Assembly: GCA_016207515.1 (NCBI GenBank)
Contig: JACQPN010000002.1
Span: 200,350 to 264,349 of the forward strand
Direction of reading: 5' to 3'
Origin: Euryarchaeota archaeon
GTDB taxonomy: Archaea; Thermoplasmatota; SW-10-69-26; JACQPN01
DNA: 64,000 nt
Positions 822-22,711 of the stretch are shown piece by piece. Both the position numbers and the translations under genes were made by a program. Every line of letters starts with the position of its first letter. Position 1 is the stretch's first letter. The notes under the pieces were generated by a model. It was not told the DNA's origin and did no database searches. It saw nothing but the letters and a program-made list of their open reading frames with translations.

Positions 822-937
822 GGCGAGGGGGAAGGAATTGTCGCCGGCGCGCTCTGCTCCGCGGCAACCCCATACCCATCGCGGAACTTGGCGAAGCTCC
901 GGTCAACAAAGCCTATATAGAGACCCACCCCTGGATA

Positions 938-948
938 GCTTATATACT
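938..948 (+). promoter_or_regulatory. TATA box of the multicopper oxidase gene
   Basis: The AT-rich stretch GCTTATATACT lies about 20-25 bp before the ATG at 964, the spacing expected for a leaderless archaeal transcript. A second AT-rich palindrome, CTATATAG, lies about 25 bp further upstream, near 912-920, and could be an alternative box or an operator. Confidence 0.55.
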
Positions 949-963
949 CCAGGTAGCGCCAGA

Positions 964-2175: not shown

Positions 2176-2218
2176 ATGGGGCGCGTCCGCTATCGAGAAG
2201 CGCCCGTCGCCGGCGCCC

Positions 2219-2313
2219 GAGACCCCCGCAGATCCTTTCCTTTCCCCGGCAAACGCGCCCGGCGCGCGAGACCCCCGTAGATCCTTTCCTTTCCCCGGCA
2301 AACGCGCCCGGCG
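2219..2313. repeat. 49-bp direct repeat, two tandem copies
   Basis: Two nearly identical units of 49 bp (2219-2267 and 2268 to about 2313) follow the multicopper oxidase stop codon. Each begins GAGACCCCCG and contains the pyrimidine tract ATCCTTTCCTTTCCCC. Only a base or two differs between copies. The pyrimidine tracts could end transcription on the + strand, but the duplication itself is the only firm observation. Confidence 0.7.
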
Positions 2314-2373
2314 TCCTCAAGGCGCGTCGATGCGACGCGCCGGCTTTATCTTGTCTCACCATGATTGCGGCCC

Positions 2374-2694
2374 ATGTTCGGATACCTTCCGTCCGTCTTG
2401 GCGCTCCACATACACGATTTCTCCGGCGCGCTCATCGCGATAGTCGGTCTCATCTCATTGGGCCTTGCCGGCGTCGGGCACCTCGCCTCGAAGGCCTCCT
2501 CGAACCCGGCCTTGAAGTACGTGACCCTTGCCTTCCTCGTGTTCGGCGCGAAGGGGCTTTTTGCGACGTGGGCGATAGTCACGGACGGTGTTGCGCACGA
2601 GGACCTCGAGCTCATCCTCAGCGCGGCTGATCTGCTCGTCGTTCTCTTGCTTGTCGCGCCTCTACTTTCGAAACGGGCGAAGAGCAAGGCATGA
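2374..2694 (+). CDS. small three-helix membrane protein next to a wHTH regulator
   Basis: A 106-residue membrane protein with three predicted hydrophobic segments (about residues 15-35, 48-68 and 82-100) and a short basic tail SKRAKSKA. ATG 2374 is preferred over an upstream TTG because TTTATC at about 2345-2350 is placed as a TATA box 25-30 bp before it. Its last four bases overlap the start of the downstream double-wHTH gene, so the two are translated together. Small membrane proteins paired with wHTH proteins in this way occur in halophilic archaea and Thermoplasmata and are usually unassigned. Function unknown; sensing or anchoring for the regulator is only a guess. Confidence 0.7.
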   Translation: MFGYLPSVLALHIHDFSGALIAIVGLISLGLAGVGHLASKASSNPALKYVTLAFLVFGAKGLFATWAIVTDGVAHEDLELILSAADLLVVLLLVAPLLSKRAKSKA

Positions 2695-3215
2695 CGAGCG
2701 AGACGCAGCATCGCGTGCTGGACTGCATCCGGGCGTACCCCGGCATACATCTAAGGGGCATCGAGCGCCTTCTAGGGATGTCGAGTGCGCTCGTCCATTA
2801 CCACGTGCGAGACCTCTTGGCGAAGGACATCATCATCGACGAGGAGCTTCACGGGCGAAGGCGCTACTTCGACGCCGACCCGGCGCGTTCAAAACGGCTT
2901 TCCCAAGACGAGCGCGACATCTTGGCGCTACTTCGCGAGGAGGCCCCCATGAACGTCGTGCTGCTGCTTCTTGACGACGGCCCGATGTCCCACGGCGAGT
3001 TAGTGGCACAGACAGGCCTTGCCAAGAGCACGGTCACTTACAACATCGACAAGTTGGTCGCGGCAGGGATAGTGGAGAAGGACGAGAAGGGCGACGCCCA
3101 AGAGCTGCGTCTTGCCGACGAGAAGCGTCTTCGCGGTCTTCTTATGGGACACGCGCCGACGCCGGACCTCATGCGCAAGTTCAGGCGACTCTGGGAGGAC
3201 TTCTATTCCGATTGA
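2691..3215 (+). CDS. tandem winged-helix transcriptional regulator
   Basis: A 174-residue cytoplasmic protein made of two winged helix-turn-helix modules. The first (residues about 1-65) has HLRGIERLLGMSSALVHYHV, the second (about 75-150) has LVAQTGLAKSTVTYNIDKLV; both are the MarR/ArsR-like helix-turn-helix pattern. Double wHTH proteins of this length are common euryarchaeal regulators. It overlaps the upstream membrane-protein gene by 4 bp and its stop is only about 11 bp from the convergent CopCD gene. No metal-binding Cys/His cluster is visible, so copper sensing is not shown by the sequence, although the position makes regulation of the neighbouring copper genes plausible. Confidence 0.8.
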   Translation: MTSETQHRVLDCIRAYPGIHLRGIERLLGMSSALVHYHVRDLLAKDIIIDEELHGRRRYFDADPARSKRLSQDERDILALLREEAPMNVVLLLLDDGPMSHGELVAQTGLAKSTVTYNIDKLVAAGIVEKDEKGDAQELRLADEKRLRGLLMGHAPTPDLMRKFRRLWEDFYSD

Positions 3216-3226
3216 CGCGGCGACCC

Positions 3227-4888
3227 CTAGTCTCCCCTCGACCCGCCTGAATCGGGCTCAACGACCTCCACTTCGAACTCCAGCTTCTTGAACTCGTCCG
3301 GGCGTTGCATGATGACGTACACCTGCCAAACGCCGGGTTCCGTGAAAAAGGCATCCTCGATCACCCACTGGTTCTCGCGCACCCTCTCGGGGATGACGAT
3401 CGTCTCCGGCTCCCCGGTCCCCGGGGGGGCGAACTTGAGTCCGACTTCCGTCGAGTTGGGTAAGGGCTCGGAGGAGAGCGGGTGAAGCGCCAGACTGACG
3501 CGTTGGATGCCGACGGTCACCGGGTTCGGCCGGATGCTCAAGACCACGTGCGTCGTCTTCGTCTCTTGCGCGAGTTCCAGCGGCACTGGCCCCTGCGTGC
3601 CCGTCTCCACATCGGCGGAAGGCGGGGCGGTCGACGCAAGAAGCCCCGCCGCACCGACGACAATGAGAAGCAACGACAGCTCGACAGCCACGACGCGGCG
3701 CAGCGTCGGCGAAGAGGCCTCGCCCAGAAGGAGCCGTGGGCCCAACTTGTATTGGTTGTAAGCGCCGAGACAAATGAGCGGCAGGATGAGCGACGCCTTG
3801 AGTATCACGAGTAGACCGTAGTCGGCGGATAGTAGGCGGTCGACGGTCCCCACATGAAGCCACGCGGCGTACGTGCCCGTCAAGAGGATCGCAGCGACGC
3901 TCCCGACCGCGATCGGCGAGAACCGCGTCACGAGTCTTCCCGCCTCCGGCGGCTTCGCCGTGGATAGGACAAGGGCGAAACTCACTAGTCCGCCCACCCA
4001 TATCGATGCCGCCGTCAGGTGGACGAGGTCGGCGGCCACCGCAAGCGCGGTCTGTTCCCGAAGTGCCGCCGCGTGGCTGCCGCTTGCCGTGAGGTAGAGC
4101 GCGGCCACCCCGAGCCCGCCAGTGGCGGCGAGCGCGAGTCGTCGGTATTTTTCAGGCGCGTAGTAGGCGGCGACGCCGCAAGCCGCTGCAAGCGCAAGCG
4201 CTCCGGAGCGCGCGACGAGGAATGTGCCGGCGTCGGTCCCGGCGGCGACTTCCACGGGGGCGGCGATACGCGAGGCGAGGCTTTGAAGCACGTAGAGGCC
4301 GGCGGCGGCTCCGACAAGACCTAGGATGGCCGGGGGAGCCGCCAGTCGACGCGGCGTATCGCCTTTGCGAAGGATCACCAAGGCGAAGGCAGGGACGCCG
4401 ACGCTCGCGAAGACGCCCATGTAGAACAATCCTCGCGCAATCCCTTCGTTCTGCACGACCTCAAGCGAGTGCTCTGCGTGCTCGTGGCTTTTCACCTCGT
4501 CGGTGAACTTCAAAGTCGCGTTCCCGACGCTGAAGACGAAGGAGCCTCTCGCCGTGTGCGTATCAACGGAGAGCGTCCTCCAATTGACGACGTATATGCC
4601 GTCGACGAGGGGCTGCGTCGGGACCCGGATGACGTTCGATTCCGCTTCATCGAACTCCGTCGTTCCAATGCTCACGATCCCTTGGTCGAGGCCCCGCACC
4701 TCGGCTTGGGTGTACTCCCGTTCGACGTCTTCCGTGAAGCGGATCTCGACCTCGGCCACCCCCCACTCGGCGTGCCCGTTCGGGGAAGGGTCGGCGCTTT
4801 GAAGGACGGCGTGCGCGGCCGCTTCGCCGGAGAATAGGATGAGAAGAAGCGCGCAGACGGCGATCAAGGGACCGTTCGCGCGCTTCAT
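3227..4888 (-). CDS. CopC-CopD-YtkA fusion, copper resistance/uptake membrane protein
   Basis: A 553-residue protein. A signal peptide precedes a CopC domain whose mature N-terminus is HAVLQSADPSPNG; its first residue is the conserved copper-binding His, and a second candidate ligand lies in SVDTHTARGSF. Residues about 150-420 form about eight membrane helices of the CopD type, with LVHLTAASIWVGG typical of CopD. The last 100 or so residues (TTHVVLSIRPNPVTVGIQRV and following) resemble the YtkA/FixH-like beta domain. CopC binds copper outside the cell and CopD moves it through the membrane; the three-part fusion is known in archaea and Gram-positives. It lies 16 bp downstream of the secreted-protein gene at 4905-5594 on the same strand, so the two form an operon. 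Confidence 0.85.
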   Translation of the reverse strand: MKRANGPLIAVCALLLILFSGEAAAHAVLQSADPSPNGHAEWGVAEVEIRFTEDVEREYTQAEVRGLDQGIVSIGTTEFDEAESNVIRVPTQPLVDGIYVVNWRTLSVDTHTARGSFVFSVGNATLKFTDEVKSHEHAEHSLEVVQNEGIARGLFYMGVFASVGVPAFALVILRKGDTPRRLAAPPAILGLVGAAAGLYVLQSLASRIAAPVEVAAGTDAGTFLVARSGALALAAACGVAAYYAPEKYRRLALAATGGLGVAALYLTASGSHAAALREQTALAVAADLVHLTAASIWVGGLVSFALVLSTAKPPEAGRLVTRFSPIAVGSVAAILLTGTYAAWLHVGTVDRLLSADYGLLVILKASLILPLICLGAYNQYKLGPRLLLGEASSPTLRRVVAVELSLLLIVVGAAGLLASTAPPSADVETGTQGPVPLELAQETKTTHVVLSIRPNPVTVGIQRVSLALHPLSSEPLPNSTEVGLKFAPPGTGEPETIVIPERVRENQWVIEDAFFTEPGVWQVYVIMQRPDEFKKLEFEVEVVEPDSGGSRGD

Positions 4889-4904
4889 GGTATACGGCCG
4901 TCGA

Positions 4905-5594
4905 CTATGGCTTTCGCCGGTAAAGGGCTATCGTTGCGACGAGCCCGAGGACGGCAGCCAACCCCGTCTCTGGGATGGGGCTCGCCTTCGACGAGCCGCC
5001 GCCGGAGACCTTGAGTGTGGCGATATCCGCCTTGAGTCCGGTGATATCCGCCTTTAGTCCGGCGATTTCTGCGTTGAGGGCGGTGATGTCTGCGGCGAGC
5101 TCGTCCGGCAACGGTTGCTCCTCGGGCCACATGATCGCCGCTAGGGAATCGATGTCGTGTTGCGGGGGCAAGGTCTGATCTATGGCGGACCCGTTGATGA
5201 TCCCTTTTATCTTGAGCGAGTAGATTCCGGGCTCCGTGTAGATGATAGGGTACGTGTATTTGCCTGACAGACCGAATTGGCCCACGAGTTCGTGCGTGAT
5301 ATCCAATTCCTTGTCGCTATGGACGATGGAGATCTCGAATCCGACGGCGCCGGCCGCGTGCGCACCCGAAGTGTTGACGAGGCCCGTGATCGGCGTTCCC
5401 GTGGCGTTGTCGTAGACGCCGAGATCAAGTCCGGTCTTGTGCCACGTATACGTCGGTTCCCCGATGTGGCCCCACACGAATTTAATCCTGTCGTCGGTCG
5501 AGTAGACGGTCTTGTGGGCGGACGCCGCGCCGGCGGCCGCCAAGAGGAGCGCAGTCGCGATTACAAGCATCAACACGGTCCGTTTTGCAGTCAT
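4905..5594 (-). CDS. secreted, C-terminally anchored protein with coiled-coil stalk
   Basis: A 229-residue protein starting at ATG 5594 (a TTG nine bases upstream is less likely). It has a signal peptide ending near ASAHKTVYS, a beta-rich domain of about 140 residues that contains several His, a short heptad stalk with repeated LKADI units (about residues 165-195), and a C-terminus IPETGLAAVLGLVATIALY followed by RRKP. That Pro-Gly/hydrophobic/Arg end matches the tripartite sorting signals used by archaeosortases. The exposed His after signal cleavage and operon position before CopCD suggest a copper-binding surface protein, by inference only. No named family recognised for the beta domain. 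Confidence 0.7.
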   Translation of the reverse strand: MTAKRTVLMLVIATALLLAAAGAASAHKTVYSTDDRIKFVWGHIGEPTYTWHKTGLDLGVYDNATGTPITGLVNTSGAHAAGAVGFEISIVHSDKELDITHELVGQFGLSGKYTYPIIYTEPGIYSLKIKGIINGSAIDQTLPPQHDIDSLAAIMWPEEQPLPDELAADITALNAEIAGLKADITGLKADIATLKVSGGGSSKASPIPETGLAAVLGLVATIALYRRKP

Positions 5595-5778
5595 GTGGAT
5601 CAACTCCGCGAGTTTAACAGTTTTCGAACACTACTGAATTATTTGTAGCTTGTGGTAAAGACGTTGGCGTGACGGCGGTCTGCTTTCGACCCTTGGCCGA
5701 CGCCGCTCGCATTCGTGCCTCGGCGAGGGGACGGACCATGGCGAAACTGCTATGGTCGGTGACGGGTTGTAGTTCCCC

Positions 5779-5964
5779 ATGGTGACAAACGCCCGTTCCG
5801 ACGCTTCTGTCGCGCTACTCATCGCAAGCTTCATCACGGTCTTCAGTTTCGTGCGACAGTCCCTGTCGGATCCCCTCGGCTCCGTCGTCGCGACGCTCGC
5901 TGCCGGCGTCGCCGTCTTTCTCATCGCCCTCAAAGCCGTGCCTTGGTACCGCGGCGAGGCCTAG
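5779..5964 (+). CDS. small two-helix membrane protein
   Basis: A 61-residue reading frame with two hydrophobic segments (about residues 10-25 and 32-52) and a basic end WYRGEA. It stands alone between two minus-strand genes. Its composition is that of a real small membrane protein, but no clear ribosome-binding site or TATA box decides the start and I recognise no family. It could be a chance reading frame. Confidence 0.4.
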   Translation: MVTNARSDASVALLIASFITVFSFVRQSLSDPLGSVVATLAAGVAVFLIALKAVPWYRGEA

Positions 5965-6029
5965 GGACGGGGGCCTTGACCGCAGGCCTCGATCCACACG
6001 CCTCCCGGGGGTTCTTTTTCCGAGGGTCG

Positions 6030-6455
6030 TCAAAGCAGGTCCACGTGGCTTGGGATGACCGTATGCCGCACCAAGTGTATCCCCTTGAGCGCCGAAAGCG
6101 CCGAGTAGAAGCTTGCCACACGCGACGACGCGCCGTCCACGACGAAGACCTCCACGCAGTCGTTGCCTCGAAGGTGCGCATGCATCATGTTCCGGATGAT
6201 CTCGCCGTAGTCGTGCTTCACGGCGGCGACGCGCCTCTCGTCGGACTTGTCGAAGCACACCGCGACGACGGCCTGCTGCTTCGTGGACTTGGAGGCCCGC
6301 TGTTCCGCCACGAACTGCGTCAGGGCCGCCTGGACGGCGACACTGCGCCCGGAAAACGGCGTCTCTTGGACGAGGCGGTCGAGCTCGGAGAGCAGGCTCG
6401 AAGGGATCGAGACCGTGACGGGTTTCGCGTTCGCGTGCTTTGCGCCGGACACCAT
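6030..6455 (-). CDS. nikR: NikR-family metal-responsive repressor (ribbon-helix-helix + ACT-like)
   Basis: A 141-residue protein from ATG 6455, the usual NikR length. Residues about 12-50 form the ribbon-helix-helix DNA-binding domain (PVTVSIPSSLLSELDRLVQ). The C-terminal regulatory domain has H81, H92, H94 and C100 in the context HDYGEIIRNMMHAH...DC; the spacing (11, 2 and 6 residues) is the same as that of the nickel ligands His76, His87, His89 and Cys95 of E. coli NikR. A TTAAG box about 25 bp upstream supports the start. The gene is divergent from a zinc/manganese-type ABC importer, and a TATGA-N16-TCATA palindrome lies between them, matching the known NikR operator. It probably represses the importer when metal is plentiful. 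Whether the metal is nickel, cobalt or zinc is not decided by sequence. Confidence 0.88.
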   Translation of the reverse strand: MVSGAKHANAKPVTVSIPSSLLSELDRLVQETPFSGRSVAVQAALTQFVAEQRASKSTKQQAVVAVCFDKSDERRVAAVKHDYGEIIRNMMHAHLRGNDCVEVFVVDGASSRVASFYSALSALKGIHLVRHTVIPSHVDLL

Positions 6456-6509
6456 GGCACCAAGCCCGTTCACTGGCTTAAGCCCACCGCGGCCGGCACC
6501 TCGCGGCCT

Positions 6510-6535
6510 TATGAAGAATGGCCATTTTCTTCATA
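6510..6535. promoter_or_regulatory. NikR-type operator TATGA-N16-TCATA
   Basis: TATGA at 6510-6514 and TCATA at 6531-6535 are separated by exactly 16 bases, the layout of the E. coli NikR operator (GTATGA-N16-TCATAC). The inner bases add to the symmetry: ATGAAGAA, 8 bases, TTCTTCAT. It lies directly upstream of the TTAATAAG box (6541-6548) of the importer operon and between the divergent regulator and importer genes. A further TTCATAT half site occurs at 6562-6568. Confidence 0.8.
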
Positions 6536-6537
6536 TT

Positions 6538-6548
6538 GCGTTAATAAG
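6538..6548 (+). promoter_or_regulatory. TATA box of the metal importer operon
   Basis: GCGTTAATAAG lies about 50 bp before the importer start and begins only 3 bp after the NikR-type palindrome, so bound repressor would cover the BRE/TATA region. Confidence 0.55.
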
Positions 6549-6593
6549 ACGGGTCGATGGCTTCATATCGGTCGGCCGACTGCCCGTCTTGCG

Positions 6594-7544
6594 ATGAGCG
6601 CGCCGGTACGAAGGGAAGGCGAGAAGGGCCGCTCGCGCTCATCGGCGTCGCGGGCGCCGCTCCTCCTGGCGTTGTTGGTCATCGGCCCCGCCGTCGCGGG
6701 CTGCACCGCGCCTTCGCCGGCCAAGACCGACATCGTTGCCTCCTTCTACCCGGTGCGTTTCCTCGTAGATTCCATCGCCGGGGGAAGGCTATCGGCCATG
6801 ACGCTCGTTTCTCCCGGGGTCGAGCCGCACGACTACGAATTGAAACCCTCCGACGTGGGCGCCATCGAAGGGGCCCGCCTCGTCGCCTACCACGGGGCCG
6901 GACTCGAGGTCTTCGAGGCGCAGGTGAAAGCGCTGGCGGCAGCGGCGGGTGTCGAGGTGGTCGAAGCCTCCCGGGGAGTCGATCGGCAGGTGCGCGACCT
7001 CGGCGAAGAGGGGACCGGCATAGATGCGCACATGTGGTTGGATCCGGTCAGGTTCAAAGCGGAGGCCGCGAACGTCGGGGCCGCAGTCCAGGCGGTGGAT
7101 CCGGGCAACGCATCGTTTTATGCGACGCGCTTCGACGCGCTGGACGAACGACTCGCCGCCTTGGACAGGGAATTCGCCGAAGGCCTTGGGGGTTGCACAA
7201 AGCCGAAGATCATCACGACGCACGCCTCGTTCGGTTACATGGCGGACCGGTACGGTTTCACCCAGTACTCGATAACCGGCTTCGAGCCGGATGCGGAGCC
7301 CTCGGCCGAAAAGGTGAGAGCGGCGGCCGACCTTGCAAGGCGCGAGAACATCACCGTGATCTTTTTCGAGACCCTCGTCTCGCCGAAGGTGGCAAAGGTC
7401 GTCGCCGACGAGATCCACGGCACGGCCGACGTCCTCGACCCCGTCGAGGGGCTCACGGAGGAGGGCGAACGCGCGGGAAGCGACTACATCTCGCTCATGC
7501 GACGGAACCTCGCAAAGCTTCGAGATGCGATGGGGTGCACCTGA
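6594..7544 (+). CDS. ZnuA-like metal-binding lipoprotein of an ABC importer
   Basis: A 316-residue lipoprotein: basic N-terminus, hydrophobic stretch and lipobox AVAGC near residue 36. It is a cluster A-I metal-binding protein. Candidate ligands are His in EPHDYELKPSD, His in AHMWLDP, His in TTHASFGYM and Glu in IFFETLV, as in ZnuA/TroA/PsaA. The acidic-His loop common in ZnuA is absent. Start at ATG 6594 gives a complete lipoprotein signal. It is first in an operon with the ATPase (overlapping) and permease. The NikR-type site upstream implies metal-dependent repression. Zinc is the default guess for the family; nickel or cobalt should be considered because of the regulator. Confidence 0.88.
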   Translation: MSAPVRREGEKGRSRSSASRAPLLLALLVIGPAVAGCTAPSPAKTDIVASFYPVRFLVDSIAGGRLSAMTLVSPGVEPHDYELKPSDVGAIEGARLVAYHGAGLEVFEAQVKALAAAAGVEVVEASRGVDRQVRDLGEEGTGIDAHMWLDPVRFKAEAANVGAAVQAVDPGNASFYATRFDALDERLAALDREFAEGLGGCTKPKIITTHASFGYMADRYGFTQYSITGFEPDAEPSAEKVRAAADLARRENITVIFFETLVSPKVAKVVADEIHGTADVLDPVEGLTEEGERAGSDYISLMRRNLAKLRDAMGCT

Positions 7545-8320
7545 CCTTGGACAAACCCTCAGTCCTCGACCTCACCGGCGTCTCCGTCGACTACGGCACC
7601 GACCGGGCCCTCGAAGCGGCCGACCTCGCCGTCGAACGGGGCGAGTTCGTAGGTGTCATCGGGCCGAATGGTGGGGGGAAGACGACCCTGCTTCGGGCGA
7701 CCCTCGGCCTCGTGCCTGCGAGGGAGGGCTCGATACGGCTTTTTGGGACACACGTGCGCAGTTTCGTCGACTGGTTCCGCATCGGGTACGTGCCGCAAAA
7801 CGCGAGCCATATCGACCCGCAGTTTCCCGCGACCGCTCTCGAGGTGACGATGCTCGGCCGGGTCGGTCGGCGTGGCCTCTTCCGTTGGCTCACGGCCGTC
7901 GACCGGGAAAAGGCCACGCACGCGCTCGAAGAGGTCGAAGCCGCACACCTTGCCGACCGCCTCATCGGGTCGCTCTCGGGGGGCGAGAGGCAACGCGTCT
8001 TGCTTGCCAAGGCGCTCGCCGGGGAGCCCGAACTCCTCATCATGGACGAGCCCACCACGGGTGTGGATCCGAAGGCGCGGTCGGCCTTCTATCGTCTGCT
8101 CGACCATTTGAACCACGAGCACGAACTCACGATCCTACTCATCAGTCACGACACGGAGGCGATCCTCCAAAGCGCCCACCGCATCGTCGCGGTGAACCGG
8201 CGCATTGTCTTCGATGGAGCGCCGGGAGTTTTCCGGGAGCGCGAGAACGTCTTGGGGGTCTACGGCCTCCACGTGACGCACGCCGAAGAAGGACACGGGG
8301 CGGCACGGGGTTCCCCATGA
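7535..8320 (+). CDS. metal ABC transporter ATPase (ZnuC-like)
   Basis: A 261-residue ABC ATPase. It shows Walker A GPNGGGKTT, Q-loop in YVPQNAS, signature LSGGERQR, Walker B LLIMDEP and H-loop ISHD, all intact. The start is taken as GTG 7535, which overlaps the end of the binding-protein gene by 10 bp; TTG 7547 is an alternative. It powers the permease at 8343-9191. Confidence 0.9.
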   Translation: MHLTLDKPSVLDLTGVSVDYGTDRALEAADLAVERGEFVGVIGPNGGGKTTLLRATLGLVPAREGSIRLFGTHVRSFVDWFRIGYVPQNASHIDPQFPATALEVTMLGRVGRRGLFRWLTAVDREKATHALEEVEAAHLADRLIGSLSGGERQRVLLAKALAGEPELLIMDEPTTGVDPKARSAFYRLLDHLNHEHELTILLISHDTEAILQSAHRIVAVNRRIVFDGAPGVFRERENVLGVYGLHVTHAEEGHGAARGSP

Positions 8321-8342
8321 ACGAAGCGCGCGAGGCGTCGAG

Positions 8343-9191
8343 ATGAGCCTCCCGGGCCCCGCGGACGTCTTCGCGTACGACTTCATGGTGCGAGCGCTTG
8401 TCGCCGGCATCCTCGTCGCGTTCCTTTGCGCGCTGCTCGGGGTCTTCACGGTGCTACGCGGCATGGGAATGATAAGCGATGGGCTTGGCCACGTGTCGTT
8501 CGCGGGCGTCGCCGTGGGCCTACTCGTCGGCGCCTTTCCCCTCGAGTTCGCCCTGGTGGCAGCGATCGTCGGGGCCGTGGCGATCCAATTGCTCCAGGAG
8601 CGCGGCCTTCTCAAAAGCGACGTCGCCATCGGCCTCGTCTTCACCGGGGGTCTCGCGCTAGGCATCGCGATCGTGAGCCACGGGCGCGGCCTAGGCGTCA
8701 ACATCTCGAGCTACCTCTTCGGCAACATCCTTGCCGTGTCCGCGGGCGACGTCCAACTAGTCCTCGCGCTCGGCGCCCTGCTCGCGGCCGCGACGGCGTT
8801 ATTCTACAAGGAGTTCCTGTACCTCACTTTCAACGAAGAGGCGGCGCGAGTGAGCGGCCTCCCGGTGGGGGCTCTCAACCTGTTCTTCAGCATCCTCATC
8901 GGCGCGGGAGTGGCGCTCGCGGCGCGAGTCGTCGGCGTTCTTCTAGTGAGCGCCCTGATCGTGGTCCCGGCGGCTGCGGCGCTGCAGGTCGCCCGGAGTT
9001 TCAAGCGGACGCTTGCGGCCGCAGCCGCACTGGGGGTCGTCGCCGTGGTGGTCGGTCTTTACCTCAGTTTCGCCGTCGACATCGCGGCGGGGGCCGCGAT
9101 CGCGCTTGTGAGCATCGGCGAGTTCGCAGCGGCGGCCTCGTGGCGCTTATTCCGTTCGATGCGCTCCGCAAGGGCGCGTAAGACAGCGTGA
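8343..9191 (+). CDS. metal ABC transporter permease, ABC-3 family (ZnuB-like)
   Basis: A 282-residue integral membrane protein with eight or so hydrophobic helices, of the ABC-3 family that carries Zn, Mn or related ions. GMGMISDGLGHVSFAGVAVG (about residues 41-60) is the conserved first cytoplasmic-loop motif of this family. ATG 8343 follows the ATPase stop by 22 bp. Last gene of the importer operon; a GC hairpin overlaps its end. Confidence 0.9.
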   Translation: MSLPGPADVFAYDFMVRALVAGILVAFLCALLGVFTVLRGMGMISDGLGHVSFAGVAVGLLVGAFPLEFALVAAIVGAVAIQLLQERGLLKSDVAIGLVFTGGLALGIAIVSHGRGLGVNISSYLFGNILAVSAGDVQLVLALGALLAAATALFYKEFLYLTFNEEAARVSGLPVGALNLFFSILIGAGVALAARVVGVLLVSALIVVPAAAALQVARSFKRTLAAAAALGVVAVVVGLYLSFAVDIAAGAAIALVSIGEFAAAASWRLFRSMRSARARKTA

Positions 9192-9204
9192 CCCGGAAAC
9201 CGGG
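9192..9204 (+). terminator. GC hairpin after the importer operon
   Basis: CCCGG-AAA-CCGGG follows the permease stop and lies between convergent genes. It could act as a terminator or RNA 3' barrier; there is no T tract after it. Confidence 0.35.
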
Positions 9205-9233
9205 CTCCCTGCCACATTACGAGCGTGACGGTG

Positions 9234-10205
9234 TTACCGCGCCTTCGGCGTCGAACGCCCTTCTGAGTCGTGGCCGAACCGCCTTCGCTCGCCACTCGAC
9301 GAACAGAAATGGATGGTCGTGAAGACACCCCCGAGTTCGTTTTCCAATCGGTCGCGCACCTCGTGGGATACGACATCGGCCTCCTCTATGGTCATCTTGG
9401 GAGCGACGGTGAGGTGCAAGTCGAGATGCACGCGGTTAGGGCCCACGTACTCGGCCGCCATCGAGTGGACGCCTTGGACGCCGGAGACGCCCTTCGCCAC
9501 GGTCTCCACGCGGACGTAGTACTCGTGAGCGGGGGACCCTCCGATGAGATACGGCACGTTCGAGAGGAACAGCCGGATGGCGTTGTAGACGATGAGGCCC
9601 GCCACCAGGATCGTCGCGAAGGCGTCGCCCTGGGAAAAGCCGGCGGCCACAAGAGCGATCCCACCCATCGCGGCCGCGACGCCCAAGACGTCGTTCAGGC
9701 TCTCCATGGCCTGCGCCCGGACGACGCCGCCCTCGGCGCGCTGATCTTTGAGGGCGAGGGCGAGTGGCCACAGGAGGAGGACACCGCTACTTCCGAGGAC
9801 CGCGAGCGCGAGGCTGGTGTCGGTGCCAGGGTCATGCGGGCGGCCTAGCGAAAGCATGGCTTCCCGCACGAGGCCTGCCGCGACCAGGAGCACGAACAGG
9901 ATCGACACGAGGACGGCCGCGAGGTTCTCGATCCGCCCGTAACCGAAAGGGTGTTTCTCATCGGGCGGGGCCGCGCTGAAGCGCGCGGCAAGGAGCAGTA
10001 GCACTATCTGCAGGATGTCGGTGAGGCTGTGGAGGGCCTCGGCAAGGACCACCACGAACCCGGTCTGCGCGTAGAGAAGGACCTTGGCAAGAAGCAACAC
10101 GACGGAGACGAAGAGCGCGACACGGATGCTCCTCAGGCGACCCGGTGTGTTTGTGGCGTGGCCGCTGTGGTCGTGCACGCCTCGCCTTAGGTCCGACCGA
10201 TTCAA
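9234..10205 (-). CDS. cation diffusion facilitator (CDF) efflux protein
   Basis: A 323-residue metal/proton antiporter with six predicted helices and a C-terminal cytoplasmic ferredoxin-like domain (about residues 215-300). The helix-2 metal motif is HSLTD (HxxxD), but the helix-5 motif is ESLND (ExxxD), where zinc-type members normally have His or Asp first. The N-terminus has a short His-rich stretch (HDHSGH). The annotated start is TTG 10205; a GTG before HDHSGH is an alternative. It converges on the metal importer operon, so import and export of metal are encoded side by side. Confidence 0.88.
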   Translation of the reverse strand: MNRSDLRRGVHDHSGHATNTPGRLRSIRVALFVSVVLLLAKVLLYAQTGFVVVLAEALHSLTDILQIVLLLLAARFSAAPPDEKHPFGYGRIENLAAVLVSILFVLLVAAGLVREAMLSLGRPHDPGTDTSLALAVLGSSGVLLLWPLALALKDQRAEGGVVRAQAMESLNDVLGVAAAMGGIALVAAGFSQGDAFATILVAGLIVYNAIRLFLSNVPYLIGGSPAHEYYVRVETVAKGVSGVQGVHSMAAEYVGPNRVHLDLHLTVAPKMTIEEADVVSHEVRDRLENELGGVFTTIHFCSSSGERRRFGHDSEGRSTPKAR

Positions 10206-10280
10206 GAAACCTTCGACGCGACGAGGCGCAGGGCCCGTTCTCCACCCGTCTTGCCTTCATCCCGCCGTTTCCACCGACGC

Positions 10281-11165
10281 CTATGGCGAATCCGGGCGCC
10301 GGCGCTTTGCAAAGGCGGAGAGAGCGATTGCCGCGCCCAGGCCGACCAATAGCGGGTAAAGACCGGTGGCCCCGGGGGTTTGGCGATCCGTTTCGGCCTT
10401 CTTCTCCTCCGAACCCGGAAGGGGGTCGAGCGCGTAAAGGTGCAATATCGGCGTGTCCGAGTAATCGAACCGGCCGGACTCGGAGGAGAAGCGCATGTGG
10501 TACATGCCTCCCGTGCGAAACACCTTGTCGACGCTCCACAACCCCGTTTCCTCCCTCGCCAGTGACGAATCATCGACGTCCACCAGCACACTGTGATCGT
10601 CGCTCCAGTGTTCGAAGCGGACTTTTACGTCCGTGAAAGGGTCCGAACGTGCCCCGGTCGACGCGTTCATCACCTCGAAGGCGAGTCCCACCGTCTTGTT
10701 CGTCGAGGAATCGAGCGACGGGTTCGCGGGCCGTATCCTGAAACCGAGCTCCGGGTAGACCGTGAAGTTGGTGTCGAGGACGTACTTGGTCCGGTTCGCT
10801 TCGAGCGTCAACGTCCCCACGTAGGGCCCGGGCCATTCCGTTCTCCAGAAGGCGCCGAAGACGGTCGGTGATTGGCGTTCGAATGATAGGGTCTCGTTCA
10901 CCTTCCCGGGCAGCACCATCTGGAGCGTGATGTTGAGGTCGGCATCAAGGCCCGATGGCCCGTTCTTCGTGACGAATGCCGAGACGCTCGTGAGCGTCCC
11001 CCTGAAGACGGGCGCCGGGTAGACGTCGACGAAGACCGCGTACGGCCCGGCCGAGAGGCTCTTCGCCTCGCTGAAGCTCTCGACATGCGCGTTAGAAGCG
11101 CCCCCCAGCCAAAGCAGGGCAAGGACCAATCCCGACCGGATCCACCGGCGCGTGCCCGCCTTCAA
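10281..11165 (-). CDS. secreted, C-terminally anchored beta-domain protein
   Basis: A 294-residue protein with an N-terminal signal peptide (cleavage near GGASNAHVE, leaving an exposed His), two beta-rich halves rich in N-x-S/T sites, and a C-terminus with TPGATG, a hydrophobic stretch and AKRRRPDSP that looks like an archaeosortase signal. Its start overlaps the end of the blue copper gene upstream by 4 bp, so the two are co-translated. The domain looks like the immunoglobulin-like/YtkA-type folds seen in copper loci, but I recognise no family. Role in presenting or receiving copper at the surface is inference. Confidence 0.65.
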   Translation of the reverse strand: MKAGTRRWIRSGLVLALLWLGGASNAHVESFSEAKSLSAGPYAVFVDVYPAPVFRGTLTSVSAFVTKNGPSGLDADLNITLQMVLPGKVNETLSFERQSPTVFGAFWRTEWPGPYVGTLTLEANRTKYVLDTNFTVYPELGFRIRPANPSLDSSTNKTVGLAFEVMNASTGARSDPFTDVKVRFEHWSDDHSVLVDVDDSSLAREETGLWSVDKVFRTGGMYHMRFSSESGRFDYSDTPILHLYALDPLPGSEEKKAETDRQTPGATGLYPLLVGLGAAIALSAFAKRRRPDSP

Positions 11166-11665
11166 GCTTTCCTCCGGGACGAGAAGAGCGCAAGGGCGAC
11201 TCCCGCGGCGACGATGGCGAGGGGCGTGGGGCCCGGCGTCGCCTGCGACGACACGGCCGCCACTTCGAGAGCACCGCGCATCCCCGCCGCTTTGTGGCCC
11301 GGGATCGTGCAGTAGTACTCGAAGGTCCCAGGTTCCGTCAACGTGAAGTCGAGGGTCACGGTCGCGTTTGGCGCCATGGGCCCGGTGAAGGCGATCTTTT
11401 GGCCGCAGTCAGAAGAACGGGCGTCGCCGCAAACGAGCAGGTCGTGCTCGGAGGCGCCCGCGTTGAGGATGTTCATCACTATCGTGTCGATCGAGGTCGC
11501 GGCGAGCCTTTCCGGCGCGATGTGGAGCGGGGCCTCGTGCAGGTAGACCGCCTGCTCGATTGTTTTCGACTGGGCGGCGCTCGCGTGGGCCAAGACGCCG
11601 GCCGATCCGAACGCGAGGAGCAATGTGATCGTCCCGACGGCCAATCTGCTGGATACCTTCCGCAT
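11162..11665 (-). CDS. blue copper protein (plastocyanin-like), surface anchored
   Basis: A 167-residue cupredoxin. ATG 11665 gives a normal signal peptide. Type 1 copper ligands are visible: His in SEHDLLV, then Cys, His and Met in YYCTIPGHKAAGM (about residues 121-135). The C-terminus has ATPGPTP, a hydrophobic segment and SSRRKA, an archaeosortase-like anchor. It would carry single electrons outside the membrane. An extra pair of Cys (VCGDARSSDC) may form a disulfide. Divergent from a second cupredoxin of the same length at 11772, and operonic with the downstream gene at 10281-11165. Promoter region contains a GTTC-GAAAA element shared with the gene at 4905-5594. Confidence 0.87.
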   Translation of the reverse strand: MRKVSSRLAVGTITLLLAFGSAGVLAHASAAQSKTIEQAVYLHEAPLHIAPERLAATSIDTIVMNILNAGASEHDLLVCGDARSSDCGQKIAFTGPMAPNATVTLDFTLTEPGTFEYYCTIPGHKAAGMRGALEVAAVSSQATPGPTPLAIVAAGVALALFSSRRKA

Positions 11666-11771
11666 GATGAGGTTTGAACATTTTTCGAACGCCCATAATC
11701 CTTTCGGTGGCCGGACGAGGGAACGGCCGGCAATCCTTAAACGAAAGGGTTCGCTCCAATTGCCGGTGAAG

Positions 11772-12275
11772 ATGCGTCCGGCAGTCCCCATCGCTGCAAC
11801 GCTTCTTCTCGTCGTCGCCCAGGGCGCTTCGGGAAGCGGCGTAGTGACGGTCGATGTACTTTTCCATGACGGCGGCGGCCACGAGACGCCTTACCATATC
11901 GCCCCGTCGGAGTTCAACGCGACCGAGGGGGATCTCCTCGTCCTAACGGTCGTGAACCCCGGCGGAAACCAACAGGGGCACGATCTCGTGGTGGAGCGTC
12001 ACCGGGACGCAAAGACGATGCTCCTGCAACCGGGGAAAAGCGAGACGCTGCGTTTCACGGCGGGCCCCGCCGGGAATCACACGTACTACTGCACGGTTCC
12101 CGGGCATCGGGAGGCCGGGATGGCGGGGACGATGCGGATCGCGGCGGGCCCCGTGGGCGACGAGGGCGATGGAAAGAGGACGGGCGTCGCGCCCGTGCCG
12201 GGCGTCCCGCTGCCGTTGCTTCTCATAGGCGTGCTGCTTCTTGTCAGGGCAAGGCGCCGGCGAAGAGCGATATGA
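11772..12275 (+). CDS. blue copper protein, surface anchored
   Basis: A 167-residue cupredoxin, divergent paralogue of the gene at 11162-11665. ATG 11772 starts a signal peptide ending near GASGSG. Ligands: His in QQGHDLVV, then Cys, His and Met in YYCTVPGHREAGM. The C-terminus VPGVPLPLLLIGVLLLV followed by RARRRRRAI is an anchor of the Pro-Gly/hydrophobic/Arg kind. Likely an extracellular one-electron carrier serving the multicopper oxidase or the CuA protein next door; partner unknown. Confidence 0.87.
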   Translation: MRPAVPIAATLLLVVAQGASGSGVVTVDVLFHDGGGHETPYHIAPSEFNATEGDLLVLTVVNPGGNQQGHDLVVERHRDAKTMLLQPGKSETLRFTAGPAGNHTYYCTVPGHREAGMAGTMRIAAGPVGDEGDGKRTGVAPVPGVPLPLLLIGVLLLVRARRRRRAI

Positions 12276-12356
12276 AGAGGGTGCACTCGGGTGGACCAGG
12301 AGCCCGCAAGCCGCCAACAAAGGTTAAATAAGGTCGAAGGGTAAAGTCGCGTGTCG

Positions 12357-13598
12357 ATGAATCGTAGAGCCATCTTGGCGACCCTTACGGGACTCACTCT
12401 CGTGGTCATCGCGCTGGTCCCCGGCCCCGGTTGGGGTGACGCGACCCACGAGCATCGCGCACCTACGGCGGACCCGTTGCGCTTCGACATGACGCAGTTC
12501 CTCACGGGCGAGAAAGGGATGACGCCGCTCGCACCGACGGCCGCCGCCGCAACGGTGATCGATGCGCCGGAATCATCGCCCGTCCAATCCGAGCCGGTCA
12601 AGTTCGTGACGAAGGCCGGGAGCAATTATTCGAAACGTTTCCTCGGCAAACTCACGCTCTTCGTGCAGTTCGACGCCCCGCCCGTCGGAATCAACGGCAC
12701 AGGCCAACCAGGATTCGGTGTCGCGTTGGGAAAGAACGGAGAGGAATTGACGTTCAGCCAATTCACGCCCTCCGATCCGATCGCCCAGAACGGGACAGCG
12801 CCCTCGAAGTTCGAGATCGGCATCCTCGGCTTCGACCTCCCGTGGAAGGCCGGGGATACGATCGAGATCTGGGTCTACTACTACGGCTTGAACAAGGCCG
12901 AGAACCCGACGGTCCATTATCTCGTGGGGAACGGAACCTACAATTCGTCGCTTTGGATGCCGATGCAGTACGCGAGCATAGACGAGTTGGGGCACAAGCA
13001 CGGGAACGCGAAGCATTTCCTGTACTCGGAATTCGACCCGTTCGACCTCAAGCGGCCGTGGCCGGGCGCCGAGCCGGTGGGAAACGACAGCATCATCATC
13101 AACGTCCGCACCTTCCACTACGCCTTCACGCCGGACCCCATAATCGTCAAGAACGGGACCCACGTCTATCTCCGGTTCTACTACGATCCGGCGCTCGACG
13201 ACTTCACCAGCGACAGCGCCGAGGGGCTCCCGCCGGCGCCCACGAAAACGGACCCGGACGATCGAGGATCCTTACACAGCTGGTCGACGAGTTACGACCC
13301 GGCTCTCACGACCCGGATCTATGCCGGGGAAGTGGTCGTCGTGGATTTCATGGCCGATCGGCCTGGCACCTATCCGACGGCGTGCACCGTGTATTGCGGG
13401 AAGAGTCACTACAACATGCAAGGCGGGCTCACGATACTCGGCGAGAATGGGACAACCGATGAGGACGGGCCAGAAATTGATGGGTGTGAGGGGCCCGATT
13501 GCGTCGCAAAGCCGACCCCGACGCCCGGATTCGAGGCGTTGTCGGTACTGTTCGCGGCCGCCGTCATCGTGTTCGCGCGACGCCGAAAGGCAATATAG
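12357..13598 (+). CDS. surface protein with a CuA (cytochrome oxidase subunit II-like) domain
   Basis: A 413-residue secreted protein from ATG 12357 (GTG 12351 is also possible; a TTAAATA box at 12324-12330 fits both). After a signal peptide and about 220 residues of unfamiliar beta-rich sequence comes a cupredoxin domain (about 245-365). It has His in LHSWSTS and CTVYCGKSHYNM, that is C-x3-C-x3-H-x2-M, the complete ligand set of the dinuclear CuA centre of COX2 and nitrous oxide reductase. It lacks the two N-terminal helices of COX2 and instead has a C-terminal TPGFEALSVLFAAAVIV plus ARRRKAI anchor. No oxidase subunit I gene is nearby. It probably relays electrons outside the membrane, but its acceptor is unknown. 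Confidence 0.82.
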   Translation: MNRRAILATLTGLTLVVIALVPGPGWGDATHEHRAPTADPLRFDMTQFLTGEKGMTPLAPTAAAATVIDAPESSPVQSEPVKFVTKAGSNYSKRFLGKLTLFVQFDAPPVGINGTGQPGFGVALGKNGEELTFSQFTPSDPIAQNGTAPSKFEIGILGFDLPWKAGDTIEIWVYYYGLNKAENPTVHYLVGNGTYNSSLWMPMQYASIDELGHKHGNAKHFLYSEFDPFDLKRPWPGAEPVGNDSIIINVRTFHYAFTPDPIIVKNGTHVYLRFYYDPALDDFTSDSAEGLPPAPTKTDPDDRGSLHSWSTSYDPALTTRIYAGEVVVVDFMADRPGTYPTACTVYCGKSHYNMQGGLTILGENGTTDEDGPEIDGCEGPDCVAKPTPTPGFEALSVLFAAAVIVFARRRKAI

Positions 13599-14966: not shown

Positions 14967-15080
14967 AGCACCGCCCTCCTAGTCCGCTCGGGTCGCGACC
15001 GCGTGCCGCTAGAGCGACGCGCGTGCTCACGGCCCGAAGCCGCGACGGGAGGCTCCCGCGCCTACAGGAGGTGACAGAGC

Positions 15081-15176
15081 ATGAGGCAGGCATTCAGCGT
15101 GGAAGTGTTGGAAGACCGGACGGCGCCGTTGTCGATGTTGACGGTGGCGGCGTGTTGTTGCAGCGACTGTTGTTAA
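15081..15176 (+). CDS. RiPP precursor peptide (31 residues, C-terminal CCCSDCC core)
   Basis: A 31-codon gene beginning ATG 15081. An unusually good Shine-Dalgarno sequence, AGGAGGTGA, lies 6 bases upstream (15066-15074). The N-terminal half contains FSVEVLED (residues 5-12), which resembles the F-x-x-x-V/L hydrophobic-acidic leader motif recognised by RRE (PqqD-like) domains in azole and thiopeptide pathways, followed by RTAPLSMLTVAA. The C-terminus is CCCSDCC (residues 25-31): five Cys, one Ser and one Asp. It is followed after 74 bp by an RRE-E1-like enzyme and an M50 protease. I infer that the Cys-rich end is the modified core, by heterocyclisation or another adenylation-driven step. A metallothionein-like unmodified peptide is the main alternative. 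Confidence 0.75.
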   Translation: MRQAFSVEVLEDRTAPLSMLTVAACCCSDCC

Positions 15177-15222
15177 GGAAACGACGACTTTCGAGACAAT
15201 GACATGGTACGATACGAGATTT

Positions 15223-15232
15223 CAATATTTTT
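15223..15232 (+). promoter_or_regulatory. TATA box of the E1-like gene
   Basis: CAATATTTTT is centred 24 bp before ATG 15251 in an otherwise GC-rich region. It suggests that the modifying enzymes have their own leaderless promoter and the precursor is transcribed separately, allowing more precursor than enzyme. Confidence 0.5.
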
Positions 15233-15250
15233 CCATTTCGCGGAAAGACC

Positions 15251-16351
15251 ATGTGGAAAAGACCGAGGCTGAAGAGATCCTGGCAGAAACTGCGCCAGGA
15301 GGACGGCGTGATCGTTCTCTTGAACGAGCTGTCGAACGACCGGTTGCGAATACGCGACGAGAGGGGGGTGGCCTGGAGCATGCTGCAGGCCTTGGAGACT
15401 CCACATGATCCGGAGTCGTTGGTCGGCGCGATCAAGGGATCCACGGGCGCTGACGCCGAGGAGATCCTCGGTGGCCTGGAATCCCTCGGAGAGGCGGGGC
15501 TCCTGGAGGAGACGCTGATCGAACCCCCGCCGGTCCCCGCCGAGTACGGAAGAGCATACAAACGGAACCTTTACTTCTTCAAAGAGTACGAGACGCAGGA
15601 GCGTGACCGCAACAAGCTCCTTCTCTCGCTTTACAACGCGCGCGTCGCCGTCCTTGGACTAGGCGGCACCGGGAGTTGGGTGATCTCGTCGCTTCTTGCG
15701 GCCGGGGTCGGGACGCTACGCGGCGCCGACGGCGACGATGTCGGGCCGGAGAATCTCGGGCGGCAGACATTCTACCGGCGACGCGACATCGGAAAGGCGA
15801 AGACGCAAGCGATGGCGGACGAAGTGGCAGACTTCAATCCTGCGATACGCTTCGAGGCACGGCAGGGAATGGTTCGTTCGGTCGAGGATGTCGCGGCGCT
15901 CATCAAGGATTGCGATTTCTTGGTCGTCGGATGCGTGGGACCCCGTTTCACGCTATTTCGGTGGGTGAACGAGGCGTGCCTCGCCGCCGGCGTCCCTTTC
16001 ATCGTGGTGCAGACTCGCGCCGTCGGCCCGATGATCGTGCCCGGGCACTCGGCGTGTTACACATGTTACGAGGGATTCCTGCGCGAGAACCACCCGTACT
16101 ACGACCAATTGGTGGCCTCCCTGGATACGAACAAGGATGCCGCGCGGGAGATGCCGCAGTTCGGGCCTCTCGTCGCGTATTCCAGCGCACGCGCGGGGTT
16201 GGAGGTCGTCCGATACCTTTCGGGCTACGCGCAGCCGGATACGATCGATTGCATATTGCAACTCAACGGACCCGACTTAGAATGGAACGCGTTCAAATTC
16301 TCAAAAGACCCCGATTGTATATCTTGCGGAACGCGTGATGTGAATGACTGA
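15251..16351 (+). CDS. RiPP leader-binding E1-like adenylating enzyme (ThiF/Ocin-ThiF type)
   Basis: A 366-residue protein. The first 90-100 residues look like a winged PqqD/RRE-like domain (IVLLNELSNDRLRIRD... and EEILGGLESLGEAGLLEE). Then comes an E1/ThiF Rossmann domain: VLGLGGTGSWV (about 134-144), ADGDDVGPENLGRQTF with the conserved Asp, Asn, Arg and Gln, and two zinc pairs, CYTC and CISC. This is the architecture of the leader-binding partner of azoline-forming cyclodehydratases; related E1-like enzymes also adenylate peptides in microcin C7 synthesis. No YcaO partner is present in the window. The gene follows a Cys-rich precursor and overlaps the M50 gene by 8 bp. Proposed role: bind the leader and activate the peptide; exact chemistry is unknown. 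Confidence 0.85.
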   Translation: MWKRPRLKRSWQKLRQEDGVIVLLNELSNDRLRIRDERGVAWSMLQALETPHDPESLVGAIKGSTGADAEEILGGLESLGEAGLLEETLIEPPPVPAEYGRAYKRNLYFFKEYETQERDRNKLLLSLYNARVAVLGLGGTGSWVISSLLAAGVGTLRGADGDDVGPENLGRQTFYRRRDIGKAKTQAMADEVADFNPAIRFEARQGMVRSVEDVAALIKDCDFLVVGCVGPRFTLFRWVNEACLAAGVPFIVVQTRAVGPMIVPGHSACYTCYEGFLRENHPYYDQLVASLDTNKDAAREMPQFGPLVAYSSARAGLEVVRYLSGYAQPDTIDCILQLNGPDLEWNAFKFSKDPDCISCGTRDVND

Positions 16352-17915
16352 GACAAATACCCACGAATGGCGCCCCGAGGACACCCCTAGACTAGCACCG
16401 ACGCTTGAGTTTTCGCCAATGCTCCAGGGCGGTGTGCAGAAGGTGGTCGTCCGCGACGCCACCACACGCAGATATTACCAAGTGACCCCCGAGGTGGCCG
16501 GTGTCATCAAGCTCTTCGATGGCAGCAAGACGATCGCCGAGGTCGCGTCGCTAGCGTCGAGCACCCTGCAAGACGATGTCTCGTCCGGCGACGTCACACA
16601 ACTCGTGGATCAGCTCTGGCGGTTCGGATTCCTTGAGGGGAGTGTCGCCCCTGCCCGCGACCCGGTGACGTGGCGAAGGAGACTGGCCATCCCGTTGGTC
16701 CGGTTCGAAAGCGGAGCCCGGTTTGAAAGGTTTGCGCGTTTCTTCGCCCCGTTTTTCTCCCCGAAACTGGCCACTCCGATGCTCTTGGCGATGGGGGCAT
16801 CCCTGCTTGTCTTCATCTATCTCTTCTTCGGAGAGCGCAACGAGATCGGGATACGGATGATGATGGCCACGAGGGATTGGATGTCCGTGCCTTTCTTCCT
16901 CGCGCTCGTTTTCCCCGTGATGGTGATCCACGAGGCGGCGCACGCCATCGCCTTCATCAATTTCGGCGGTCGCAAGCCCCGGTTCGGCGTCATCGTGTTC
17001 CTGTTCGTCATCCCGGCGTTCTACACGGACGTGAACGATGCGTACCGCTTCCAGAACAAATGGCACAGGATCGGCGTGAGCCTCGCGGGACCGTTTTCGA
17101 ACCTGCTTCTTGCGATACCAGCGCTGATCTTTTGGCCGTTGACTCAGGGCCTGCTTCACGATGCCGTGTTCTTCCTCATCATGATGAACATGAGCGTCGT
17201 GATCTTCACGCTCTATCCCATGTTCAGGGCCGACATTTACTACATCCTCGTCGATCTTCTCGAGATCCCGAACCTGCAGGAAAAGGCCATTGGCTACACG
17301 TGGGGTGCCCTGAAACACCGGTTTGGGGGCCCCCGCCCGGCAGTGCGGGCCGACGGGAGGCGACAGGCGACGATATTCGCGGCCTACGCCGTCCTAAGCG
17401 TCCTCGCTAACGCAGGCATTTTCTATCTCCTGTTCTTGCAAACGGTGGGCTTCACGCCGGTGGGCGATGCCGTGGAACAGAACGAATTCGCATTGGCGCT
17501 TCCCGGCGTCTCGGGGGTCCTGGTGATGCGCGACATGGCCGAGCGCGCCATGGCAGATCGCGACGGAACCGGCGGGATGGGAGACATGATGATGGACCAA
17601 GATCAGGTCTCGAAGAATTCATTGAAAGATTGTCCAAAAGCGCAGGCGGAGGGCGACGCGTCCATGACGATGGCGAGCGGCGAGTCGAACATGTCGTCGA
17701 TGGACAATCAGTCGATGTCGTCCTCGATGGAAGGCATGGACCAGAACCAGACCGAGTCCGGCGCTAGTCCGACGGCCGAGGAGATGAACATGACCGAGGA
17801 AGAACATGCGGGAATGAGCGGAAACGACTCGGACGACCCGATGGCCCACATGTCCGGCGGCGACGGGGTGGAATCGATGGAAGGGATGGGCACGGGCGAC
17901 GAATGCGATGAGTGA
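16344..17915 (+). CDS. M50-family membrane zinc protease with PqqD-like N-terminus and Met-rich tail
   Basis: A 523-residue protein. Residues about 15-95 form a second PqqD/winged leader-binding-like domain. About six helices follow, with HEAAH (about 195-199) as the HExxH zinc motif and the Asp-containing segment FRADIYYILVDLLEIPNL, the pattern of the putative peptide zinc metalloproteases found in bacterial RiPP loci. The last 120 or so residues (from about 395) are hydrophilic and hold about 19 Met plus many Asp/Glu/Ser, e.g. MDNQSMSSSMEGMD; this resembles Met-rich copper-binding tails. The gene overlaps the E1-like gene by 8 bp. Likely roles are cleavage of the leader and/or passage of the modified peptide; the tail suggests a link to extracytoplasmic copper. 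Confidence 0.85.
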   Translation: MTETNTHEWRPEDTPRLAPTLEFSPMLQGGVQKVVVRDATTRRYYQVTPEVAGVIKLFDGSKTIAEVASLASSTLQDDVSSGDVTQLVDQLWRFGFLEGSVAPARDPVTWRRRLAIPLVRFESGARFERFARFFAPFFSPKLATPMLLAMGASLLVFIYLFFGERNEIGIRMMMATRDWMSVPFFLALVFPVMVIHEAAHAIAFINFGGRKPRFGVIVFLFVIPAFYTDVNDAYRFQNKWHRIGVSLAGPFSNLLLAIPALIFWPLTQGLLHDAVFFLIMMNMSVVIFTLYPMFRADIYYILVDLLEIPNLQEKAIGYTWGALKHRFGGPRPAVRADGRRQATIFAAYAVLSVLANAGIFYLLFLQTVGFTPVGDAVEQNEFALALPGVSGVLVMRDMAERAMADRDGTGGMGDMMMDQDQVSKNSLKDCPKAQAEGDASMTMASGESNMSSMDNQSMSSSMEGMDQNQTESGASPTAEEMNMTEEEHAGMSGNDSDDPMAHMSGGDGVESMEGMGTGDECDE

Positions 17916-22289: not shown

Positions 22290-22367
22290 GCACGTCAAGG
22301 GCGCTCTCGACCCGCATGACCCTTCCCGTTGGAGGGGTCGCCGAAGGAAATCGGCGTCCGCGAACCA

Positions 22368-22375
22368 TTAATAAG
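22368..22375 (+). promoter_or_regulatory. TATA box of tRNA-Phe
   Basis: TTAATAAG, about 40 bp upstream of the mature tRNA 5' end, which allows a short 5' leader for RNase P. Confidence 0.5.
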
Positions 22376-22412
22376 GTGCCTCGCTTTCGTCCCCCTGCCC
22401 TCGGGCAATACA

Positions 22413-22485
22413 GCCGCAGTAGATCAGTTGGGAGATCGCCAGACTGAAGATCTGGAAGTCGCTGGTTCGAACCCGGCCTGCGGCA
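22413..22485 (+). tRNA. tRNA-Phe (GAA)
   Basis: A 73-base cloverleaf. Acceptor GCCGCAG pairs with CTGCGGC (22478-22484), discriminator A. D arm GATC/GATC; anticodon stem CCAGA/TCTGG around loop CTGAAGA, anticodon GAA; T arm GCTGG-TTCGAAC-CCGGC. No intron and no encoded CCA. Its last 11 bases are the first bases of a 75-bp tandem repeat. Confidence 0.95.
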
Positions 22486-22637
22486 TCGGGACGCGGTCGT
22501 TTCCGTCGACGCTTTTTCCGCGCCAGCGGAAAAAGGGTCGTTTGGAGCCGGCCTGCGGCATCGGGACGCGGTCGTTTCCGTCGACGCTTTTTCCGCGCCA
22601 GCGGAAAAAGGGTCGTTTGGAGCCGGCCTGCGGCATC
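22475..22637. repeat. 75-bp tandem repeat that includes the tRNA-Phe 3' end
   Basis: Units at 22475-22549 and 22550-22624 appear identical and a third starts at 22625 but stops after GGCCTGCGGCATC. Each begins with the last 11 bases of the tRNA and holds a perfect hairpin, CTTTTTCCGC-GCCA-GCGGAAAAAG (22512-22535 and 22587-22610). The hairpin with its T run may terminate the tRNA transcript. Confidence 0.85.
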
Positions 22638-22711
22638 ACATTGTTCCTGCCTTAGTCATTTCGAGGCCTGTTCCATAATCCTATTCCCGGCCCCACCGGG
22701 ATTGAGAGGCC

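Follow-up and report, generated by a model that had tools for sequence, protein, structure and literature searches.

RRE-ThiF enzymes such as MccB, PaaA, GrcB, EnfB, and IndF carry an RRE fused to an E1 domain of the MccB fold and are encoded next to a short precursor. As 27,400 RRE-ThiF fusions have already been catalogued (PMC12150305), the enzyme kind itself is known. In the daptide pathway the leader is cut off by another enzyme, the peptidase MpaP (PMC10036551). In one published account, the characterised archaeal RiPPs are haloarchaeal lanthipeptides (PMC12144867). In the literature searched, which covered few subscription journals, we found no account of an E1 protein and an RRE-M50 protease paired with a short precursor, or of an archaeal case. 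Here we describe an archaeal locus of this composition, which we read as a variant of the RRE-ThiF RiPP loci.

The locus belongs to a Thermoplasmatota archaeon, whose class is represented by only seven genomes in our comparison set, and was analysed within a stretch of 64,000 nucleotides (G000:C2:200350-264349; hereafter the window) from a 2.67-Mb genome that is 98.4% complete. An ORF for a 31-aa peptide, an RRE-E1 gene, and an RRE-M50 gene follow one another on the plus strand; the E1 gene starts 74 bases after the short ORF and overlaps the M50 gene by 8 bases, and the three have GC3 values of 0.77, 0.76, and 0.79, respectively. That this is a RiPP-type locus is well supported by the predicted folds, the gene order, the overlap, and similar cassettes elsewhere. 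It is probably a compact RiPP cassette in which the E1 protein, through its RRE, and then the M50 protease handle the leader, and the core is released, although neither an exporter nor a third enzyme adjoins it, which counts against such a cassette. Further along the window, an ORF with the repeated segment PACGIGTRSFPSTLFPRQRKKGRLE (22329-22655) corresponds to a tandem DNA repeat.

The short ORF, for the putative precursor MRQAFSVEVLEDRTAPLSMLTVAACCCSDCC (15081..15176, plus strand), starts at the sole ATG of the window with the 9-base Shine-Dalgarno sequence AGGAGGTGA (15066..15074, plus strand), which lies 6 bases upstream. Its predicted product terminates in CCCSDCC, with Asp29 before the C-terminal Cys31, and among the 1,406 stop-bounded frames of at least 20 residues scanned over the whole window it is the only one with at least five Cys in the last seven residues. 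The putative leader, MRQAFSVEVLEDRTAP (15081..15128, plus strand), weakly resembles the daptide motif ELExMEAP in sequence: its segment VLEDRTAP has L, E, A, and P in common with the motif, 4 of 7 positions. By analogy with the daptides, cleavage may occur after AP and yield the putative core LSMLTVAACCCSDCC (15129..15173, plus strand). Such a leader motif would fit an MpaP-like protease, but the match is post hoc, is equalled by 2% of shuffled sequences, and is tied by three other ORFs (rank 1-4 of 392).

The RRE-E1 protein (366 aa; 15251..16351, plus strand) is an MccB-like member of the ThiF family, with the RRE at approximately residues 1-90, the E1 domain at residues 124-356, and two Cys pairs (Cys269/272 and Cys356/359). 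It matches ThiF in Pfam (7e-38), and a PDB search gave MccB as the best match (2e-24), followed by MoeB, ThiF, and PaaA. Its AlphaFold model (pLDDT 71) matches full-length MccB (E 1.6e-19, TM 0.71/0.76), including the N-terminal leader-binding domain, and the modelled N-terminus has the three-strand, three-helix pattern of an RRE. PqqD was matched in two of six relatives (best E 0.027), and TIGR03882 scored 33 bits on the window, just under its cut-off of 36.9. A scan of genome contigs with the E1 protein alone gave no match, nor did two scans of viral contigs.

The ATP site of this protein is unusual. In an alignment of 25 distinct E1-type proteins, among them the MoeB-like proteins of this genome, the Mg-binding Asp is present in all 24 others and is replaced in the window E1 alone, by Val229 (codon GTG, 15935..15937, plus strand), within the sequence GCVGPRF where ADxP is usual. 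As GTG is two base changes away from an Asp codon, a sequencing error is unlikely. The Arg of the YKRN motif, Asp162, Asn168, Arg171, Gln172, Lys184, and the CxxC pairs are all kept. At the equivalent position of EnfB, an Asp225Ala change abolished activity (PMC12250964). On account of Val229 we count the locus as a variant and not as a proven active member of the RRE-ThiF group; its E1 protein either docks the leader only or activates carboxylates in an unusual manner.

The third gene encodes an RRE-M50 intramembrane metalloprotease of 523 aa (16344..17915, plus strand), which is related to MpaP of the daptide pathway. In NCBIfam it scores highest with daptide_HExxH (MpaP), although its 155 bits stay below the 300 that this model requires, and among the plasmid matches listed an mpaP gene annotated in Streptomyces virginiae has the lowest E-value (2e-20). 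Both the motif HEAAH (HExxH, residues 196-200; 16929-16943, plus strand) and the third-ligand Asp297 (17232-17234, plus strand) are intact, and the protein ends in an acidic, Met-rich tail of 124 aa with 19 Met and 29 Asp plus Glu (17541..17912, plus strand). Taken alone, the modelled N-terminal domain has the fold of TbiB1 bound to its leader (lasso B1) and of PqqD (probability 1.00, TM about 0.73), with E-values of 0.02 or worse and from a weak M50 model (pLDDT 58). In Streptomyces, RRE-M50 genes of this kind adjoin daptide enzymes together with LanKC and YcaO, and also LanB and SagB genes. The features that the first-pass annotation had picked out at this locus were thus recovered: a Cys-ended small gene with a strong Shine-Dalgarno site, an RRE-like domain joined to an E1/ThiF domain, a membrane M50 protease with a second PqqD-like domain (here on a weak model), and the gene order with overlapping enzyme genes.

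From the ORFs, the predicted folds, the intact protease motif, the overlap, and the related cassettes we infer leader binding, cleavage, and release as follows. The RRE of the E1 protein would bind the leader (approximately residues 1-16) of the 31-aa peptide, while the Cys-rich core would be held at the MccB-type E1 site. Next, the leader would be bound by the RRE of the M50 protease, and this membrane enzyme would cut it off, freeing the core at the membrane.

Gene pairs in which an E1 gene precedes an RRE-M50 gene were also found in the archaeal genomes G150 (two loci) and G315 and in the actinobacteria Streptomyces NBC_00464 and NBC_01592, Micromonospora, Nonomuraea, and Actinacidiphila. 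Most of these pairs are adjoined by short ORFs, usually preceded by GGAGGTG, as is the case for the putative precursors of Streptomyces, Micromonospora, Rugosimonospora, and the archaeon G150. The short ORFs include MEKIEIRPLDRLETTAQSCPRCA and MEKIEIRMLDKLETTAVCHEDVPCS at locus L019, one ending in TIEIRKLDKIETTALNSNPSG at L028, and MEIKVRKVEDVKATGLQV at L055; G150 and G315 have two putative precursors on the strand opposite to the enzymes, and in Rugosimonospora (L029) a pair of such ORFs follows E1, with no M50 gene seen there. At the second G150 locus (L044 4419-4950), the leader MAKKIAISIRPAEKWETT is the same in all three tandem ORFs ahead of the E1 and M50 genes, whereas their cores differ. 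Such an arrangement is a hallmark of RiPP precursors, so E1-M50 pairs appear to be RiPP machinery in general, which does not directly show the same for the window. Some of these loci hold further details. After the E1 and M50 genes of L019, on a Streptomyces plasmid, two consecutive unannotated putative precursors (8431-8631) end in SCPRCA and VCHEDVPCS, and the putative precursor at L014 12134-12283 (G315) seems to start with CTG, where its G150 homologue has TTG. In a single family of Thermoplasmatota, loci L046, L048, L049, and L052 have an RRE-E1 gene followed by transporter-like genes, without M50, in a microcin C-like layout.

Related three-gene cassettes thus occur in archaea and actinobacteria, but the window does not have their leader. 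A leader common to the window and the other E1-M50 cassettes had been expected, but the comparison did not bear it out: the other-cassette leader scored 4.6 on the window peptide, compared with 24-39 on its own, and 33% of shuffled sequences reached 4.6. The Cys cluster is not general to the wider E1-M50 cassettes either: any Cys at all occurs in the core of 4 of the 11 other putative precursors. Their short genes are mostly downstream. In the E1 tree the window protein falls outside the E1-M50 clade, on a tree with long branches, which counts against kinship.

The possible readings differ as to what the E1 protein does. Because the Mg-binding Asp has been lost, we slightly favour an E1 that docks or carries the leader and does not adenylate over one that activates carboxylates in an atypical way; the former has a roughly even chance of being correct, and the latter, which would lead to a thiolactone or another macrocycle, a smaller though still appreciable one. 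Were E1 instead an active adenylyltransferase, it would activate the C-terminal or the Asp29 carboxylate for attack by a Cys thiol, giving a GrcB-like thiolactone from which the M50 protease removes the leader. The RRE-ThiF enzyme GrcB links Glu and a C-terminal Cys as a thiolactone (PMC12250964), comparable to the placement of Asp29 before Cys31, and the MccB-like fold and the retained ATP-site residues and CxxC pairs agree with this route; however, the two-base change to Val229 and the inactive EnfB variant make it rather unlikely. A docking E1 would also be expected if the locus worked as in azole RiPPs, with a modifying enzyme supplied from another locus of the genome. Within YcaO clusters, docking is the only role of RRE-E1 proteins (PMC12150305), and the active site of the window protein is degenerate, yet the 98.4%-complete genome gave no match to YcaO or to the SPASM radical SAM, MNIO (bufferin-like), and LanC families in searches whose controls were positive. 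These partners are therefore missing from the genome and not merely outside the window, and a distant enzyme of this sort is doubtful. While the RiPP reading of the first-pass annotation stands as to locus type, its analogy with azole synthesis was rejected because YcaO is missing and the E1 protein is nearest to MccB and PaaA, and its suggestion that the partner might be encoded elsewhere found no support among the YcaO, SPASM, MNIO, and LanC families. MccB and PaaA work without YcaO.

With regard to the product, which may be a thiol, metal-binding peptide, and perhaps a metal-binding or a thiolactone Cys peptide, the surroundings of the cassette have to be considered. Upstream of it, at 0.8-12.3 kb of the window, proteins of copper metabolism are encoded: a multicopper oxidase, a CopC-CopD fusion, and two cupredoxins. 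Together with the Met-rich tail of the protease they suggest a possible link to copper. The same cluster (838-13598) also encodes a CuA-like protein, recognized by its motif only. An unmodified Cys-rich copper ligand, which E1 and M50 would only carry, cut, and release, would account for the CCCSDCC end, the Met-rich tail, and the copper genes within 14 kb upstream. However, at least about 1.5 kb with two ORFs on the opposite strand separates these genes from the cassette, none were seen at other E1-M50 cassettes, and metal binding itself is putative; we consider this explanation unlikely. It would be quite improbable that the 31-aa ORF is a spurious frame and that the two enzymes have some other substrate. 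The peptide has no relative in plasmids and 390 genomes of the phylum, where our search returned only itself and one match at chance level, and the short ORFs of related cassettes are mostly not Cys-ended, but its unique combination of Shine-Dalgarno sequence and Cys end, its gene-like GC3, and its position 74 bases ahead of E1 argue for a genuine gene.

The compact cassette, with the leader handled by E1 and then by the protease, thus remains our preferred reading. It places an E1-plus-RRE-protease route in Thermoplasmatota, beside the haloarchaeal lanthipeptides, and cassettes of E1, RRE-M50, and short precursor are found repeatedly among actinobacteria and archaea. With its Val in place of Asp, the E1 protein would allow a direct test of whether an RRE-E1 can be solely a leader carrier outside azole pathways. 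It is a doubtful but conceivable proposition that the locus combines an E1 that lacks the universal Mg-binding Asp or is a pure leader carrier, a thiolactone or metal-binding Cys-cluster peptide for copper handling, and an RRE-guided intramembrane protease with a metal-binding tail that releases it.

In comparison with known systems, the locus is like the azole (TOMM) cyclodehydratase partners in having an RRE with a degenerate E1 and a near-cut-off TIGR03882 score, but differs from them in its genome without YcaO and its MccB-like fold. Its precursor ends in Cys, in contrast to Asn in microcin C-type and Thr in daptide precursors, and the ORF lists around the cassette contain no MpaB, MpaC, MpaD, or MpaM genes. 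The protease shares with MpaP the fusion of an RRE to M50 and the intact HExxH and Asp, whereas its NCBIfam score is below the cut-off and it has the additional Met-rich tail. With the cassettes at L019, L028, L055, L013, L014, and L044 the locus has in common the gene pair and, for most of them, a short ORF with a strong Shine-Dalgarno sequence; however, their leader motif IxIRxL[DE][KR]xETT is not shared by the window peptide, their M50 proteins are of another subfamily, and their precursors are mostly downstream. The RRE-ThiF enzymes have the Cys pairs and most of the ATP-site residues in common with the window E1; the locus is set apart from them by lacking an adjoining transporter and by the Val in place of the Mg-binding Asp, the Cys-rich C-terminus of its precursor, its RRE-M50 partner, and its archaeal host.
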